Source: Rheinheimera sp.
GTDB taxonomy: Bacteria; Pseudomonadota; Gammaproteobacteria; Enterobacterales; Alteromonadaceae
Direction of reading: 5' to 3'
NCBI GenBank assembly: GCA_003543135.1
Contig: DPJG01000006.1
Span: 62,001 to 126,000, forward strand
DNA: 64,000 nucleotides
Positions 2,943 to 63,364 of this stretch are shown here, in pieces. A program made the position numbers and the translations under genes. Every line of letters begins with the position of its first letter. Within the stretch, counting starts at the first letter, position 1. Below the pieces are notes generated by a model. The model ran no database searches. It was not told where the DNA came from and saw nothing but the letters and a program-made list of their open reading frames with translations.

Positions 2943-3757
2943 TAATCCTTTAACTCCATTAATTCCCCGGCATAATCGGCCGCTTTAAAATGGAAAGGTA
3001 CAGGACCATCAGCCAGACCTTGTAAAAACTGCTGTACCAGCGGCGATTCATGCACCCGTAACTGCTGCGGCGTGCCATGGCCAATCACCCGGCGCTCTGC
3101 CACTACATAGACGTAGTCGGCAATACTCATCACTTCGTTGACATCATGGGACACCACAATAGACGTCAGCCCCAGTGCATCATTTAAAGAACGGATCAGC
3201 CGTACTATCACGCCCATCGAAATAGGGTCCTGACCGGCAAAAGGCTCGTCATACATAATCAGCTGAGGGTCCAGCGCAATAGCACGCGCCAGCGCAGCAC
3301 GGCGTGCCATACCACCAGACAGCTCGCCCGGCATTAAATCGCGGGCACCACGCAAACCAACGGCTTCAAGTTTCATCAGTACCATCATGCGGATAATTTC
3401 TTCCGGCAATTTGGTATGCTCGCGGATTGGAAAGGCCACGTTATCAAACACAGACATATCGCTGAATAAAGCGCCGCTTTGAAACAACATGCTCATTTTT
3501 TTGCGGGCCTGATACAGATCATTGCGGCCAAGGGCTGGAATATCAACACCATCAAACCAGATATGGCCGCTGTCCGGTTTCAGCTGACCGCCGATCAGAC
3601 GCAATAAGGTGGTTTTCCCAATCCCGCTCGGCCCCATAATGGCGGTCACTTTACCACGACGGAACTGCATGCTCATGTCGTCATAAATCACCCGCTCACC
3701 GCGGCGGAAGGTCAGGTTTTGAATGTTCACCAACGGCTCAGCCGTTGTATTTCCCAT
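2942..3757 (-). CDS. mlaF: Phospholipid ABC transporter ATPase MlaF
   Basis: 271-residue ATP-binding subunit of the Mla lipid transporter. The start is placed at [15 protein letters not shown] (3757) because upstream sequence to 3868 is not family-like and falls in the promoter region. Visible motifs are Walker [10 protein letters not shown] (about residues 43-51), ABC signature [14 protein letters not shown], Walker [11 protein letters not shown] and switch His in [10 protein letters not shown]. First gene of the operon, divergent from kdsD. A possible promoter and palindrome lie at 3924-3951. Confidence 0.96.
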
Positions 3758-3951: not shown

Positions 3952-4164
3952 ACTTACGCCAATTCACGGTTTTTTTTGCAATTCCACCAGAGAAGCAGGA
4001 AAATGTCGCAGTTTTGCGGGCGCTGCTGGCTTCTACGCTTTAATGCTTTGCCAGTTCAGTGACGAACCGCTTTGTTTTTGATATTTATTCGCATTTTGTC
4101 GAAGTTAACTGAATATCAGCTTAACCATCACCGGGAAAATCAGCCCGGCCGCAGGAGAAACACC

Positions 4165-5133
4165 GTGACTATAGATTACTGTGCCAAAGCCAGGGCAGTC
4201 TTTGCGATTGAAGCTGCAGCCATTGTTGGATTAAACCAGTATCTGGATCACAATTTTGAACGCGCTTGCCAGCAGATGTTTGACTGTAGCGGCCGTATTA
4301 TTGTTATCGGCATGGGAAAATCCGGTCATATCGGCAATAAAATCGCTGCCACTCTGGCCTCAACCGGTACTCCGGCGTTTTTTGTCCACCCAGGTGAAGC
4401 AAGCCACGGTGACCTTGGCATGATCACCAAAGGTGACATTGTACTGGCCTTGTCCAATTCAGGCGAAACCAATGAGTTACTGCTGATAGTTCCAGTGTTA
4501 AAACGCCTTGGCATTGGCTTGATTGCCATGACCGGCAATCCTCAATCAACTCTGGCCCGCCTTGCCGATGTGCATTTATGTGTCAAAGTGGAACAGGAAG
4601 CCTGCCCGCTTGGGCTGGCACCAACAGCCAGCACCACAGCAGCCCTGGTGATGGGGGATGCTTTAGCTGTTGCTTTACTGGAGGCCCGTGGTTTTTCCGC
4701 CGATGATTTTGCGCTGTCGCATCCGGGCGGCAGTTTGGGTAAAAAGTTATTGTTACGGTTGCAGGATGTGATGCACCAGGGCGAACAAATACCGCTGGTA
4801 CCTGTTTCAGCCACCATTAAGCAGGCCTTGTTAGAAATATCACAAAAAGGTCTGGGCATGACCGCCATCGTCGATGAACAAGGCAAGCTGGCCGGTATTT
4901 TTACCGACGGTGATTTACGGCGTTTGCTCGATTTAAGAGTCGATATTCATCAGACCCTGATTGCCGACGTGATGATCCGCAACTGTATTACCGCCAAAGC
5001 CGATATGCTGGCCGCCGAGGCGCTGAAAATTATGGAACAAAAGAAAATTAATGGCCTGATTGTATTATCAGACGACAGAACGCCGATAGGCGCGATGAAT
5101 ATGCACGACTTGCTGCGGGCCGGAGTGTTGTAA
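4165..5133 (+). CDS. kdsD: D-arabinose 5-phosphate isomerase KdsD
   Basis: 322-residue isomerase that turns ribulose 5-phosphate into arabinose 5-phosphate, the first step to Kdo for lipopolysaccharide. I choose GTG 4165 because it follows an AGGAG-type ribosome binding site at 4153-4158 and gives the family length; an ATG at 4072 would add 31 unrelated residues. SIS domain (about 35-170) with GMGKSGHIGNKIAATLASTG and ALSNSGETNELL, then EACPLGLAPTASTTAALVMGDA, and two CBS domains in the C-terminal third ending HDLLRAGVL. It overlaps kdsC by one base. Confidence 0.96.
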   Translation: MTIDYCAKARAVFAIEAAAIVGLNQYLDHNFERACQQMFDCSGRIIVIGMGKSGHIGNKIAATLASTGTPAFFVHPGEASHGDLGMITKGDIVLALSNSGETNELLLIVPVLKRLGIGLIAMTGNPQSTLARLADVHLCVKVEQEACPLGLAPTASTTAALVMGDALAVALLEARGFSADDFALSHPGGSLGKKLLLRLQDVMHQGEQIPLVPVSATIKQALLEISQKGLGMTAIVDEQGKLAGIFTDGDLRRLLDLRVDIHQTLIADVMIRNCITAKADMLAAEALKIMEQKKINGLIVLSDDRTPIGAMNMHDLLRAGVL

Positions 5134-57870: not shown

Positions 57871-58422
57871 TTAGTCAGTGGCCTCCGGCTTTTTACGTCC
57901 GGTCATATCCTTGACGTAAACCATTGGCCGGTCACTGACTTCAATTTTGTCAGTCCACATTTTCAAGTGTTTGCCGAGCAATTCGAGTGAGCCTTTCTTA
58001 TCAGCAAACTTAAATTTCTTGGCAACGACCCGAGTCTGGCCATCGTTTTCTATTTCAATAACGTCCATACCGACGAGGGCTGCAGCTGTGTCGTCGTCCA
58101 GTTCGTGCAACGGCTTTAAGGTGCCATCAGCATTGAAGCACTTGCGGATGTCGGCAAAGCCAAGGCGAGATACTTCGAGCAAAACCCGCTCAACCGTAAC
58201 TTCAAGTTTTGCCAATGTCTTACCCATCACCCGGTCAACCTCCACTTTGATACGAGGGTTGGCCAGCATGCGTGACGCCTGTACATTGGCCGCCCTTGGC
58301 GAGTACCCCGCACTGATTGCGGCTTCAGTACCGTTATTGCCATTGCTGCAGTAGTGATAGATAAACAGGATTTCGCGCTCGCTGAAGTCCCCTGTCACGG
58401 CTGATTGTTTACGAACTGGCAT
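57871..58422 (-). CDS. terS: Terminase small subunit
   Basis: 183 residues of the Terminase_2 family: ILFIYHYCSNGNNGTEAAIS, AGYSPRAANVQASRMLANPR (helix-turn-helix) and IKVEVDRVMGKT. It recognises phage DNA for packaging and lies immediately upstream of TerL, with a 3-base gap. Confidence 0.9.
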   Translation of the reverse strand: MPVRKQSAVTGDFSEREILFIYHYCSNGNNGTEAAISAGYSPRAANVQASRMLANPRIKVEVDRVMGKTLAKLEVTVERVLLEVSRLGFADIRKCFNADGTLKPLHELDDDTAAALVGMDVIEIENDGQTRVVAKKFKFADKKGSLELLGKHLKMWTDKIEVSDRPMVYVKDMTGRKKPEATD

Positions 58423-58879: not shown

Positions 58880-59100
58880 AGCTTGATATCCGTAATGAGT
58901 TGCAGGGTGTACCGGTGATGGTCGAGGTTGGTGTTGCCGTTAAATGGTCGTAGCGGACAACCAGAGACCGTCATGTTTGAAGGCGGCAGGACGTAAACTG
59001 GTTGTTTGACTGTGACCGTTCTGACTTCGACTGGCGTCGTTGAGCAGCCGAAGAGCATCATCAGGCAAAGCAGTAGCAGTCCAGGTGCGAGTCGGTTCAT
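58795..59100 (-). CDS. Outer-membrane spanin subunit Rz1 (lipoprotein)
   Basis: 101 residues from ATG 59100. Lipoprotein signal with lipobox LLLCLMMLFGC-S and mature Cys near residue 18. The rest is Pro-rich (KQPVYVLPPSNM), typical of Rz1. Its first 161 bases overlap the end of the Rz gene in another frame, the hallmark Rz/Rz1 layout. With Rz it disrupts the outer membrane after endolysin. Confidence 0.88.
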   Translation of the reverse strand: MNRLAPGLLLLCLMMLFGCSTTPVEVRTVTVKQPVYVLPPSNMTVSGCPLRPFNGNTNLDHHRYTLQLITDIKLCHQALIRIQQWREAAEAEFAHQAQQQN

Positions 59101-59434
59101 GTTCAGATACCTGCAGTTTATTGGAGTTGGCTTGCCAGTCGTTACCTGTGTCGGTGATGGCAATGGTTTGTCGTTCGTGCTCAGAGTTGATGGCGGCAAC
59201 CAGCTCTGCCTGCGACTTCATGGTTTCAACTTCAGTGCCGAGGTAAGCGACTTCAGATGCCAGGCCATCGATTTCCAGTTTCTGGTTTGCGATGGTGGAT
59301 TGCTGCAGTTTGATAGCATTATCTGCCGTCTGCAGATTAAAGGTTTGGTAGCCGGCGAACAGGCCGCATGCAACGATGGCTAGCGCCATTACATGCAGCA
59401 GGCCGATTTTCAACTTACTGGTAAGCATCTTCAT
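58940..59434 (-). CDS. Inner-membrane spanin subunit Rz
   Basis: 164 residues. Starts with ATG overlapping the endolysin stop (ATGA). N-terminal signal anchor at about 12-28 (LHVMALAIVACGLFAGY), then a periplasmic coiled coil (TIANQKLEIDGLASEVAYLG) typical of i-spanins. Overlaps Rz1 as described. Confidence 0.88.
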   Translation of the reverse strand: MKMLTSKLKIGLLHVMALAIVACGLFAGYQTFNLQTADNAIKLQQSTIANQKLEIDGLASEVAYLGTEVETMKSQAELVAAINSEHERQTIAITDTGNDWQANSNKLQVSEHEPTRTWTATALPDDALRLLNDASRSQNGHSQTTSLRPAAFKHDGLWLSATTI

Positions 59435-59961
59435 TTTGTTAAGTCCTTAAGGCACACCTTTCGCTCTTTTGCCCGGCGTGTGCGAAGTCCGGCAGATTCT
59501 TTCCCGTCGATTTTTATCCAGGCGAGCAATTGATCACAGGCCTTCAGCCGCTGACCGGAATTGAGCAATGAAAGCATTGTTGAAGGCTTCCCATTACGAA
59601 GCACAGCAAAACCGTCTCGCCCGCGGTTGGCGCCATCCTTGCGCCCATAACCTACGTTGTAGATAAAGCTGAGATAAGCAGCATGCTCACCTTCCGAAAG
59701 CGGAACCTTAACAACTGAGCGCAGTTGCCGGTCATGCTTGTGCAAATCAGCAACGAGCTGGTTAAGGCATTCTTCTTCAGTAAACGTCTGCCCCATTCTT
59801 AGCTCTGGCCCTGTGTGGCCAAAGCAGCTGGTAAGAATGCGAGCTGGATCCAGATAGACTTTCCGGACTTCGCCTTCACTGGGGACAATCAAAAACGCAG
59901 CCGAAAGAGACAGCGCACCAGTAATGCCCAGCGCTGCGAGTTTCTTTTGGATTGGGTTCAT
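59431..59961 (-). CDS. Endolysin, GH24 lysozyme with signal-anchor (SAR) N-terminus
   Basis: 176 residues. A weakly hydrophobic, Gly/Ala/Ser-rich segment at about 10-26 (LGITGALSLSAAFLIVP) is a SAR-type anchor. The catalytic Glu lies in VPSEGEVRKVYLDP and the Asp in the same stretch, followed by the Thr-containing ILTSCFGHTGPEL; this is the E-8-D-5-T pattern of P21/Lyz-type enzymes. Also contains AYLSFIYNVGYG. A SAR enzyme is released from the membrane when a pinholin depolarises it. Confidence 0.9.
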   Translation of the reverse strand: MNPIQKKLAALGITGALSLSAAFLIVPSEGEVRKVYLDPARILTSCFGHTGPELRMGQTFTEEECLNQLVADLHKHDRQLRSVVKVPLSEGEHAAYLSFIYNVGYGRKDGANRGRDGFAVLRNGKPSTMLSLLNSGQRLKACDQLLAWIKIDGKESAGLRTRRAKERKVCLKDLTK

Positions 59962-59963
59962 TG

Positions 59964-60443
59964 TTAATCGACGATGTACCAGTCAGTGGCCAGCATATCG
60001 GTTTGGCTGGCAAGCCAAGGGACCGTCGAATTCTGAACTGTTCTGATTGCTAAAAACGGCACCAATTTGCAGTTATCATTCTTGCCATTGGTATAAGTCC
60101 AGTAATCACCACTGCCCGGCATGCCGATGCCAAAGATGTATTGACCAGGACCATTCCAGCCAGAGCGAGAAACGTACTTACCAGCTTTAATGGCATTCAG
60201 CGCCATCCCAAAGTCCATACCAGAGGTCGGCTGATATGCGCGCTCGAAAACATCTTTCGGTGACCAGCTGATGTAGCCGGCAAAGTCTGGGTGATTAGGT
60301 TTGCCGCCATCCAGATACTCAACAAGGTAGCCTGGCGTGTGTGGTTCCTGACCTTCTGGCAGCTTCCACCCTTGCAGGTTGTTGTACTGGCCCAGCGGCA
60401 TTGGAACCGCCTTGATTAATTTAGTGCCAATGTATAAATCCAT
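59964..60443 (-). CDS. Two-domain protein: N-terminal phage domain plus C-terminal DUF2829/Tad2-like domain
   Basis: 159 residues from ATG 60443 (AAGGCGG upstream); a longer frame to 60500 lacks support. Residues 1-74 (MDLYIGTKLIKAVPMPLGQY, then GYLVEYLDGGKPNHPDF and GYISWSPKDVFERAY) form a domain I have seen next to DUF2829 in phages. Residues 77-159 match DUF2829: DFGMALNAIKAGKYVSRSGW, NGPGQYIFGI, and VPWLASQTDMLATDWYIVD. Tad2, an inhibitor of the Thoeris defence that binds its signal nucleotide, belongs to DUF2829. Anti-Thoeris activity here is inferred. Confidence 0.78.
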   Translation of the reverse strand: MDLYIGTKLIKAVPMPLGQYNNLQGWKLPEGQEPHTPGYLVEYLDGGKPNHPDFAGYISWSPKDVFERAYQPTSGMDFGMALNAIKAGKYVSRSGWNGPGQYIFGIGMPGSGDYWTYTNGKNDNCKLVPFLAIRTVQNSTVPWLASQTDMLATDWYIVD

Positions 60444-60445
60444 GA

Positions 60446-60790
60446 TCACGCCGCCTTTGCAGCAAACTGCTGCGCCAGTGAATAACCTTCCAGCTCCCAC
60501 AGCTTGTTGCGAGCCGACTCTGCCGCTTTTTCGATGGCGTACTTAGCTCCCAGCTCAGCATTGAAGTTGCGTGGGTCAACGCAAGCAGTGAACTCATTGG
60601 CCAGTGTGAACTTAACTGCACCAACCTGAAGAATGGCAGTGGCAATTGTGGTTGTGGTACCTGGCACAACGTGAGTGCTGAATGTCACTTGCTGCATCAG
60701 CTCATCAATCCGGCCAGCGGTTACTTTGGGATATACAGAGCCAGCTGCTTCAAAGTCAGCCTGCATTTTGTGGTCGTTGTGCTTGGTCAT
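60446..60790 (-). CDS. Phage protein of the N4 gp49/Sf6 gene 66 family
   Basis: 114 residues from ATG 60790, which follows GAGG. The core VTAGRIDELMQQVTFSTHVV, VGAVKFTLANEFTACVDPRNFNAELG and YAIEKAAESARNKLWELEGY matches this family, known from many phages without a fixed role. Its stop is close to the start of the Tad2-like gene. Located at the head of the lysis cassette after a terminator. Confidence 0.8.
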   Translation of the reverse strand: MTKHNDHKMQADFEAAGSVYPKVTAGRIDELMQQVTFSTHVVPGTTTTIATAILQVGAVKFTLANEFTACVDPRNFNAELGAKYAIEKAAESARNKLWELEGYSLAQQFAAKAA

Positions 60791-60819: not shown

Positions 60820-60843
60820 GCCCCAGCTGAAAACCAGTGGGGC
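60820..60843 (-). terminator. Intrinsic terminator before the gene-66-like gene
   Basis: Six-bp GC-rich stem GCCCCA / TGGGGC around a 12-base loop, with TTTTTTG on the minus strand. It lies in the 5' untranslated region of the lysis cassette. Confidence 0.7.
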
Positions 60844-60887
60844 GGAGATAGTGCACGCTAATTAAAACAACGGAGTTAAAAACAAAA

Positions 60888-60908
60888 AACCCAGCGCTTG
60901 GCTGGGTT
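60888..60908 (-). terminator. Intrinsic terminator after the membrane coiled-coil gene
   Basis: Arms AACCCAGC / GCTGGGTT with a 5-base loop and a TTTTTTG tail on the minus strand, 70 bases past the stop at 60978. Confidence 0.85.
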
Positions 60909-60977
60909 CAGGATTAGCTGGGCAGGAAATGCTCAGCTTGGGAAATAGTAAGCTATTTTTGGTTGATGTCAACTGGC

Positions 60978-61817
60978 TTAGTCAACGACCACGTTATTAG
61001 CTTCGAAGTATTCGTCAATATTAAAGATCTGATAACTGTTCACTCTAGCGTTGATGATGCCAATCGCATGCATGATGGAAATGACTTCGGTATATTGAAG
61101 AGTGTAACTCGTATAGACTGCAGTCGCCCCAAACTTCAGTTGGTACTCAGTCAGCAACACACTTAATTGTGCGAGCAGTACGACAACCCTATGTTCGGCA
61201 ATTGCAATCGGTCTTTTGGATTTAGCATCATACAGATTCTTCCATACACCTATGTGTTGATCTTTTTTAACTGCTTCGAAGCACTCTCTTAAAAAGTCAG
61301 ATATGCACTTAAAGCTGCCGGGATTTCTAGTCCAATTCCGCACATAAATCTCCGAGTGAAGCTTCGCATCAATATTCTGTAATAAGCTGTGGTAATGGTT
61401 CATTTCATGTTGCTTTTGAGAGTCTTTTAATTGATCCCGCAATGTAGCTTCAGACTTCACATGAGCTTCTGCTGATTTAGCCAGCTCATCTTTTGTGAGG
61501 CGCAACTCTTCTGACTGAATTCGAATTGTGTATAGCAGTGCGATAAACGAAGCGAACGCTAAGATAGGGTTAAGCATGCCGCCAAAGAAGTCGCCCATCT
61601 GCCCGTATTTTGCAGCTGTGTTTATATCCATCTCTGGCCCAGCTGTAATGTATACGCTTATCACTGTTGAGATGATTGCTGTGAGCAAAATCATTAAGAT
61701 AAAAGTTTCATTACCGTCTTTCTTTGATTTGTCTGGATAAAGAGAAAACACTATCCATGTAAGAATCATCATCGCTAAGGCAAACACAGATAGAAAATTA
61801 AAAATAAACTCACCCAT
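60978..61817 (-). CDS. Membrane protein with coiled coil, AbiC-like exclusion candidate
   Basis: 279 residues from ATG 61817, right after a strong GGGAGGGG site. Three hydrophobic helices (about 5-27, 38-58, 80-97); the third follows GDFFGGMLNPILAFASFIAL. A coiled coil runs about 98-140 (SEELRLTKDELAKSAEAHVK). The soluble C-terminal half includes NHYHSLLQNIDAKLHSEIYV. The layout matches a family annotated as putative phage abortive-infection (AbiC-like) proteins. It is more AT-rich than its neighbours and is bounded downstream by a terminator, like a moron. Function inferred, not shown. Confidence 0.65.
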   Translation of the reverse strand: MGEFIFNFLSVFALAMMILTWIVFSLYPDKSKKDGNETFILMILLTAIISTVISVYITAGPEMDINTAAKYGQMGDFFGGMLNPILAFASFIALLYTIRIQSEELRLTKDELAKSAEAHVKSEATLRDQLKDSQKQHEMNHYHSLLQNIDAKLHSEIYVRNWTRNPGSFKCISDFLRECFEAVKKDQHIGVWKNLYDAKSKRPIAIAEHRVVVLLAQLSVLLTEYQLKFGATAVYTSYTLQYTEVISIMHAIGIINARVNSYQIFNIDEYFEANNVVVD

Positions 61818-62758: not shown

Positions 62759-62784
62759 AAAGCCCAGTCCGCTGGGCTTTTTTT
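62759..62784 (+). terminator. Plus-strand intrinsic terminator overlapping the end of the Q-like gene
   Basis: Arms AAGCCCAG / CTGGGCTT with a 4-base loop and seven Ts on the plus strand; the tail overlaps the stop codon of the minus-strand Q-like gene. On the minus strand the tail is TTTGAAGG, weaker. It implies a plus-strand transcript coming from the interval to the left. Confidence 0.75.
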
Positions 62785-63364
62785 AAACGTCCATCCCATC
62801 CAGCAAAACCCGCGCACACTGCCCCGCCTGTCCGGCCGCACGATGTAACTTATCAACACACCCCATGTAAACGTCATACCATTTTTTGTTGAACTCATAC
62901 CTGGTGACGGCCTGCTCAGCTGGCAGTAAGTGACAGACCATCTGATGCAGTTCACGCTGGCTGGGAATGTACCGGCCAACGCCGTTGCAGCGCGGACACT
63001 CAACAAACTTGCTGTGCTCTTTGCTGAGTATCGAGCCGGTGCCGTGGCATTTTTTACATGCTGGCGAGTCGCAAACTTCTGCTGTTGCAGCTTCGGCCAG
63101 CGCAAAAGCCAGGTTGTCGTTCACGCCGGTTGATGCCAAATAAGCCTGCAGCGTACCGACACACTTTGCCCTGGCGTTTTTATCCTGTGCAATCTGAGCG
63201 TCGAGCACCGCAGCGCCGAGCGGTTCTCTGTGCTGAACCTGCCCGAGGATGCCGAGCACATCCTCTCCGGTCATCGGGTTGGCCGACTTACGGAACATGC
63301 TTGGGTCACCGGTAATTGATTTGGGGCACTGGCGGCTAAACAAACGCTCTACTGACATCACCAT
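62783..63364 (-). CDS. Q-like late antitermination protein (Antiterm family)
   Basis: 193 residues. The middle has a DnaJ-like zinc ribbon: CDSPACKKCHGTGSILSKEH, then CPRCNGVGR, and a following helix region with RYEFNKKWYDVYMGCVDKLH. Lambdoid Q and related antiterminators have such CxxCxGxG fingers with a C-terminal helical part. It stands between RusA and the lysis/structural operon, on the same strand, the usual place for Q. ATG 63364 has GGGG upstream. Confidence 0.75.
   Translation of the reverse strand: MVMSVERLFSRQCPKSITGDPSMFRKSANPMTGEDVLGILGQVQHREPLGAAVLDAQIAQDKNARAKCVGTLQAYLASTGVNDNLAFALAEAATAEVCDSPACKKCHGTGSILSKEHSKFVECPRCNGVGRYIPSQRELHQMVCHLLPAEQAVTRYEFNKKWYDVYMGCVDKLHRAAGQAGQCARVLLDGMDV

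Follow-up and report, generated by a model that had tools for sequence, protein, structure and literature searches.

A small domain recurring on phage sponge families is fused to a Tad2-like domain and lies beside an Acb4-family gene in a Rheinheimera contig

A stretch of 64,000 nucleotides from Rheinheimera sp. (GenBank assembly GCA_003543135.1, contig DPJG01000006.1, positions 62,001 to 126,000), here called the window, carries a prophage gene directly before an endolysin gene whose product joins a small N-terminal module to a Tad2-like domain. The module recurs on several families of phage sponges. The gene is probably a counter-defence sponge gene accompanied by an Acb4-family partner, with the module as an accessory domain shared among phage sponges that may serve in docking or assembly. 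The gene and its two parts are:

59964..60443, minus strand: fusion gene, 159 amino acids, ATG at 60443, N-terminal module plus Tad2-like domain, phrog_872
59967..60218, minus strand: Tad2-like domain (PF11195), residues 76-159, from profile, solved relatives and fold
60219..60443, minus strand: N-terminal module, residues 1-75, SH3/Tudor-like barrel with the motif SWSPKDVFExAY, from alignments, model and fold comparison

A first-pass annotation of the sequence had assigned the C-terminal part to DUF2829, the family of Tad2, and this assignment was borne out. Residues 76-158 cover the PF11195 profile completely (1-73 of 73; E 9.4e-24, 84.2 bits against a curated cut-off of 25). The nearest solved relatives are ModTad2 (9eib, E 3e-15) and Tad2 (8v3e, E 3.2e-15), and the predicted structure of the protein showed the Tad2 fold on comparison. 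The full length of the protein is matched by phrog_872 (function not known; positions 13-172 of 172, E 2.6e-55). Matches were obtained in 285 phage records, annotated as hypothetical, DUF2829, 'anti-CRISPR protein' or 'Thoeris anti-defense 2-like protein', and 93 of them span 80% or more of the protein's length; the fusion is therefore an established phage family and not rare.

The N-terminal part, described in the same annotation as a phage domain, is real and was modelled confidently, with block means of 93-98 in the predicted local distance difference test over residues 1-80, but its presence is not accidental, as it turned out to be a module recurring on sponge families and PF21825. In fold comparison the module matched, among others, Tudor, chromo, SH3 and CarD/Mfd barrels, folds that make contact with protein or nucleic acid. 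No sequence match to the module was found in Pfam, NCBIfam or PDB. Eleven residues (G6, K8, G38, V41, Y43, S59, W60, S61, P62, F66 and Y70) do not vary in any of the 65 aligned fusions, although WSPKDVF was itself part of the search patterns. The idea of a decayed second Tad2 was rejected (profile-profile probability 0.13% over 9 columns). Among 398 sampled genomes of the phylum, the module was found in a bacterial chromosome only once, namely in the window's own genome.

IMG/VR scans, fetched phage records and the window together yielded 195 distinct module proteins, which were labelled with domain models built from fetched members. They comprised 88 module-Tad2, 22 module-PF21825, 22 module-PF21825-Tad2, 20 module-Acb4 and 13 module-Tad1 proteins, 29 with the module only and 1 odd case, totals that reflect the choice of seeds, whole fusions having been the starting point of two of the three IMG/VR scans. 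For the module-only proteins, Pfam added a Tad2-like domain in one (L061) and PF21825 in two (L226, L231). The scan seeded with the module only, from which 80 loci were kept of 357 confirmed, gave 73 distinct proteins: 31 module-Tad2, 14 module-Acb4, 5 module-PF21825, 5 module-PF21825-Tad2, 1 odd and 17 module only. Pfam, applied to 149 representatives with one protein possibly counting under two families, reported Tad2-like 93 times, PF21825 35, PF13876 18, the Acb2/Tad1 hairpin 2, and HNH and AP2 once each. The last two belong to an endonuclease-like stretch lying in frame before the last part of the Tad2 match in a module-PF21825-Tad2 protein (L192:3001-4263). Tad1 identity of the L069 type came from phmmer against the solved Tad1 8kbb (E 2.7e-17), the Pfam score of 25.5 being just below the cut-off of 27.

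A replicate scan of GTDB genome contigs returned 57 loci, all of which were labelled: 24 module-Tad2, 11 module-Acb4, 7 module-PF21825, 4 module-PF21825-Tad2, 8 module only and one case each of module-Tad1, module-Tad2-PF21825 and module-Acb4-Tad2. The 8 module-only loci consisted of 2 with cut PF21825-like tails (judged by eye), 5 short ones and 1 entering a masked stretch. No unrelated partner stood in place of the sponge families or PF21825 among the 57 loci, the labels covering these four families only. One phage record (L170) has a C-terminal tail for which no Pfam family was found; its match to SspH1 chains (E 0.0005, with 1.4 for the best single stretch) was set aside as probably compositional. 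The module is thus a recurring one whose recognisable partners are all sponge-family domains or PF21825.

Some individual proteins are worth recording. In prototype crAssphage (Carjivirus communis, BK010471.1), KP06_gp41 (L168:3001-3450) has the module fused to a PF13876 domain (E 5.7e-15) and is a predicted anti-CBASS sponge of an abundant human gut phage (CBASS, cyclic oligonucleotide-based anti-phage signalling system). Module, Acb4-family and Tad2 domains follow each other in one protein at L268:4001-4732 (Pfam E 6.6e-27 and 1.7e-21). Aeromonas phage JELG-KS1 (L169:2998-3207) carries the module as a free gene between the spanin and large terminase genes.

The module proteins and the free sponge genes are also linked as neighbours. 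For 27 of the 195 proteins a separate labelled open reading frame (ORF) was found on the same strand within the fetched flanks, at a distance of no more than 300 bp in 24 cases. The commonest arrangement was a free Acb4-family gene beside module-Tad2 (13 of 24, window included), and the reverse was seen as module-Acb4 beside a free Tad2 (4) or a free Tad1 (1). Once, a free module lay beside a free Tad2, the genes being 3 bp apart (L115). A scan seeded with Acb4, with domains labelled by models built for this analysis, was evaluated for the best 80 of 522 confirmed loci. No other labelled domain was present in 55 of these, while the module occurred in 12, Tad2 in 12 and PF21825 in 9; two (L313, L314) are near relatives of the window itself. 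PF21825 is thus found with sponges also where the module is absent: five of these 80 loci fuse it directly to Acb4 (L319, L354, L356, L369, L391). Another one fuses Tad2 directly to Acb4 (L318), and at L172:2974-3717 a fusion with the module holds both PF21825 and an Acb4-family domain according to Pfam. When only N4 gp48 served as the seed, 5 loci were returned.

A tree of the module was built from 146 of 153 representatives, 123 of them labelled, after removal of open-ended rows, a single row with an odd label and duplicates among the module sequences. Partner changes numbered at least 25 by parsimony, compared with a mean of 43.6 for shuffled labels (as low in 0 of 200), this being a parsimony count on a poorly resolved tree of 73 columns with 98 of 143 inner branches open. 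Its starred branches force at least 4 changes for Tad2, 2 for PF21825 and 3 for Acb4. Several independent module fusions are likely on this basis.

In the window, the fusion gene is surrounded by the following features:

60446..60790, minus strand: Acb4-family gene (PF13876), 114 amino acids, ATG at 60790, its end 2 bp ahead of the fusion gene
59431..59961, minus strand: endolysin (Phage_lysozyme PF00959, E 4.5e-29), starting 2 bp downstream of the fusion gene
58940..59434, minus strand: Rz-like spanin (phrog_89)
57871..58422, minus strand: small terminase (PF03592)
62783..63364, minus strand: weak candidate for a Q-like antiterminator (PF03589, 20.4 bits, under the cut-off of 26.7)
60945..60972, minus strand: promoter-like site TTGACA-16-TACTAT upstream of the gene pair, from a consensus scan; may be chance
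60887..60909, minus strand: first terminator-like hairpin, 9 pairs, then a T run (scan and fold)
60820..60843, minus strand: second terminator-like hairpin, then a T run (fold; absent from the scan list)

The neighbouring gene, which the first-pass annotation had left unmentioned, matched PF13876 with E 8.8e-15 and 55.4 bits against a curated cut-off of 27; phmmer with its product found no solved Acb4. The anti-CBASS sponge Acb4 belongs to this family, and 8 of 8 tested homologues bound 3'3'-cGAMP according to PMC11722364. After the fusion gene come endolysin, spanin, small terminase, large terminase (just under its cut-off) and portal, so that the gene does stand right before the endolysin as annotated. 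The 146-base stretch upstream of the pair has a more stable fold than its shuffled versions (z -3.97), none of 200 reaching the same stability. In the consensus scan of this region, neither promoter-like sites (3 found, 6.7 expected) nor terminator-like sites (6 found, 6.9 expected) exceeded chance. In the related phage L010, tandem hairpin-like sequences (by eye) precede the fusion gene and no Acb4-family ORF is present there. Together with the weak Q-like protein upstream, the hairpins in both phages suggest a late operon under Q control, with the fusion gene as a constant member and the Acb4-family gene as a variable one. The fusion gene would then be expressed late, judging from its position, the promoter-like site, the two hairpins and the weak Q-like match.

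Upstream of the pair, at 60978-61817 on the minus strand, the window encodes a 279-amino-acid protein with hydrophobic N-terminal stretches, which matched only phrog_8999 and phrog_33781 (function not known) and, weakly, FtsK_4TM (E 0.075). It could be a prophage exclusion or defence gene. In L010, no ORF like it is listed between a 68-amino-acid gene (3193-3399) and the hairpins. The TIR_2 and AGS_C models, which miss some Thoeris and CBASS types, found no matching defence in the host genome.

The late position, which the first-pass annotation had emphasised, applies to the window but is not a property of the family. In Louie the homologous gene follows the spanin gene and in Skulduggery the large terminase gene; Kapi1 carries it between spanin and terminase genes, and Vibrio phage 41E34.2 between ssb and endolysin. 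N4 has it downstream of ssb, next to the virion RNA polymerase gene, which runs in the opposite direction. In N4, a PF13876 protein (gp48, L002:3603-3974, E 8.8e-35) is encoded side by side with the module-Tad2 protein (gp49, 3974-4456). In Skulduggery, the gene before the fusion (SKUL_7, L005:3693-3995) has a weak match to the Acb2/Tad1 hairpin (E 2.3e-5, below cut-off) and perhaps represents another paired sponge.

In the proposed mechanism, the Tad2-like domain would most likely bind and hide an ADP-ribose-type alarm molecule (gcADPR or His-ADPR) made by the Thoeris TIR enzyme, and the Thoeris effector would stay off with its signal sequestered. The Acb4-family neighbour would most likely hide CBASS cyclic dinucleotides in the same manner, and as a pair, encoded in one short segment where the lysis operon starts, they could cover two alarm pathways. 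The module would dock a protein or drive assembly, providing different sponges with the same partner or with higher valency. According to published work, gcADPR is bound by SPO1 Tad2 and His-ADPR by MoTad2 (PMC13299392), 3'3'-cGAMP is not bound by SPO1 Tad2 (PMC11722364), and Tad2 uses a beta2-beta5 insertion to bind cyclic dinucleotides (review PMC12043709). A division of labour between Tad2 and Acb4 fits the window because its Tad2-like domain is short (84 residues), nearer to SPO1 Tad2 (90) and ModTad2 (89) than to the SptTad2 (101) and HgmTad2 (104) chains. As a general rule, however, the division was not supported: the idea that Tad2 loops are shorter where a linked Acb4 might cover cyclic dinucleotides was not borne out by core length (median 85.5 in 6 linked versus 81 in 59 other proteins).

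The pocket loop reads WNGPGQ in the window protein and WNGKGM in most of the 65 aligned relatives, so that positions 99 and 101 depart from the majority residue and the choice of ligand could differ. This loop, changed within the window's own lineage and WKDSGQ in the relative L009, might alternatively be drifting in a domain that has lost binding of its old signal. Such a loss is improbable, as the core residues W96, W143, S146, Q147, D149, D154 and W155 are retained and Q101 is found in 10 of 65 relatives. It is highly improbable that the fusion belongs to the virion or the lysis machinery and carries a Tad2 fold that has degenerated. Its place directly before the endolysin and the annotation of the free module of JELG-KS1 as 'putative decoration protein' would suit such a role, which the first-pass annotation had also raised, but homologue positions differ among phages and most Tad2 core residues are kept; examined indirectly in this way, a virion role found no support. 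For the partner family PF21825 (crAss001 gp48), the available main text of PMC10172136 contains no 'gp48'; the virion cargo proteins of crAss001 given there from mass spectrometry are gp45, gp46, gp47, gp49 and gp50.

For the module itself, a docking or assembly domain is the simplest reading, with docking a serious possibility that is not firmly favoured. A second ligand pocket, making the fusions two-ligand sponges, seems rather unlikely. It would account for the attachment of the module to sponges that bind different ligands, for its occurrence by itself, in one case at a distance of 3 bp from a free Tad2 gene, and for its 11 invariant residues, given that WSPKDVF was part of the search patterns; on the other hand, the barrels matched by the module are contact folds for protein or nucleic acid, the module has no known ligand, and the model was made without ligand. 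A role in stability or oligomerisation is about equally doubtful. Very unlikely is binding of RNA polymerase in the manner of CarD or Mfd, by which the protein or its partners would be placed on transcription complexes; a profile search for a CarD/Mfd match reported only PF11195 at E up to 10, HMMER filters dropping most matches above about 0.1. Returning to docking, we tentatively suggest a wider reading, in which the module is a general docking domain swapped among Tad2, Acb4 and Tad1 for a common partner or co-assembly and PF21825 (crAss001_48) is a further, undescribed sponge family.

Tad2, Acb4 and Tad1 are already known, as is phrog_872 as a family without function. In the sources as far as available, the only related remark, in PMC11722364, concerns 'additional extensions' borne by several Acb4 homologues, and a search of the literature library for PF21825 or 'crAss001 48' found no paper. 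PMC13232231 shows that the discovery of signal-degrading and sponge families is continuing, and it cites a 2025 preprint on phage sponge diversity (doi 10.1101/2025.08.24.671296). Part of the present findings may already be described in that preprint, PMC12159963 or PMC13243611. In the sources as far as available, sponges have been described family by family; one small domain on three sponge families, from N4 to crAssphage, would imply a step in sponge action that these sources leave unnamed. The module also offers a sequence handle for finding new sponges by the company they keep. A direct prediction is that PF21825 binds a nucleotide signal, testable by the type of assay used for Acb4, and N4 gp48 and gp49 provide a ready laboratory model.

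Compared with known Tad2 proteins (SPO1 Tad2, ModTad2 and HgmTad2/AcrIIA7; PF11195), the window protein adds the 75-residue N-terminal module and differs in its WNGPGQ loop. Within phrog_872, a family of varying genome position and without stated function, N4 gp49 shares 44.9% identity with it over 97% of the protein. The CarD/Mfd RNA-polymerase-interaction domains, which are Tudor-like, resemble the module with low Z only, lack a sequence match and have a different genomic setting. To our knowledge, no homology is known between the Acb4 and Tad2 sponge domains; structural homology of Acb4 to Tad2 was not found according to the available text of PMC11722364. The same module that precedes Tad2 in the window precedes the Acb4-family (PF13876) domain in 12 of the 57 GTDB loci, namely 11 with Acb4 and one with Tad2 added.
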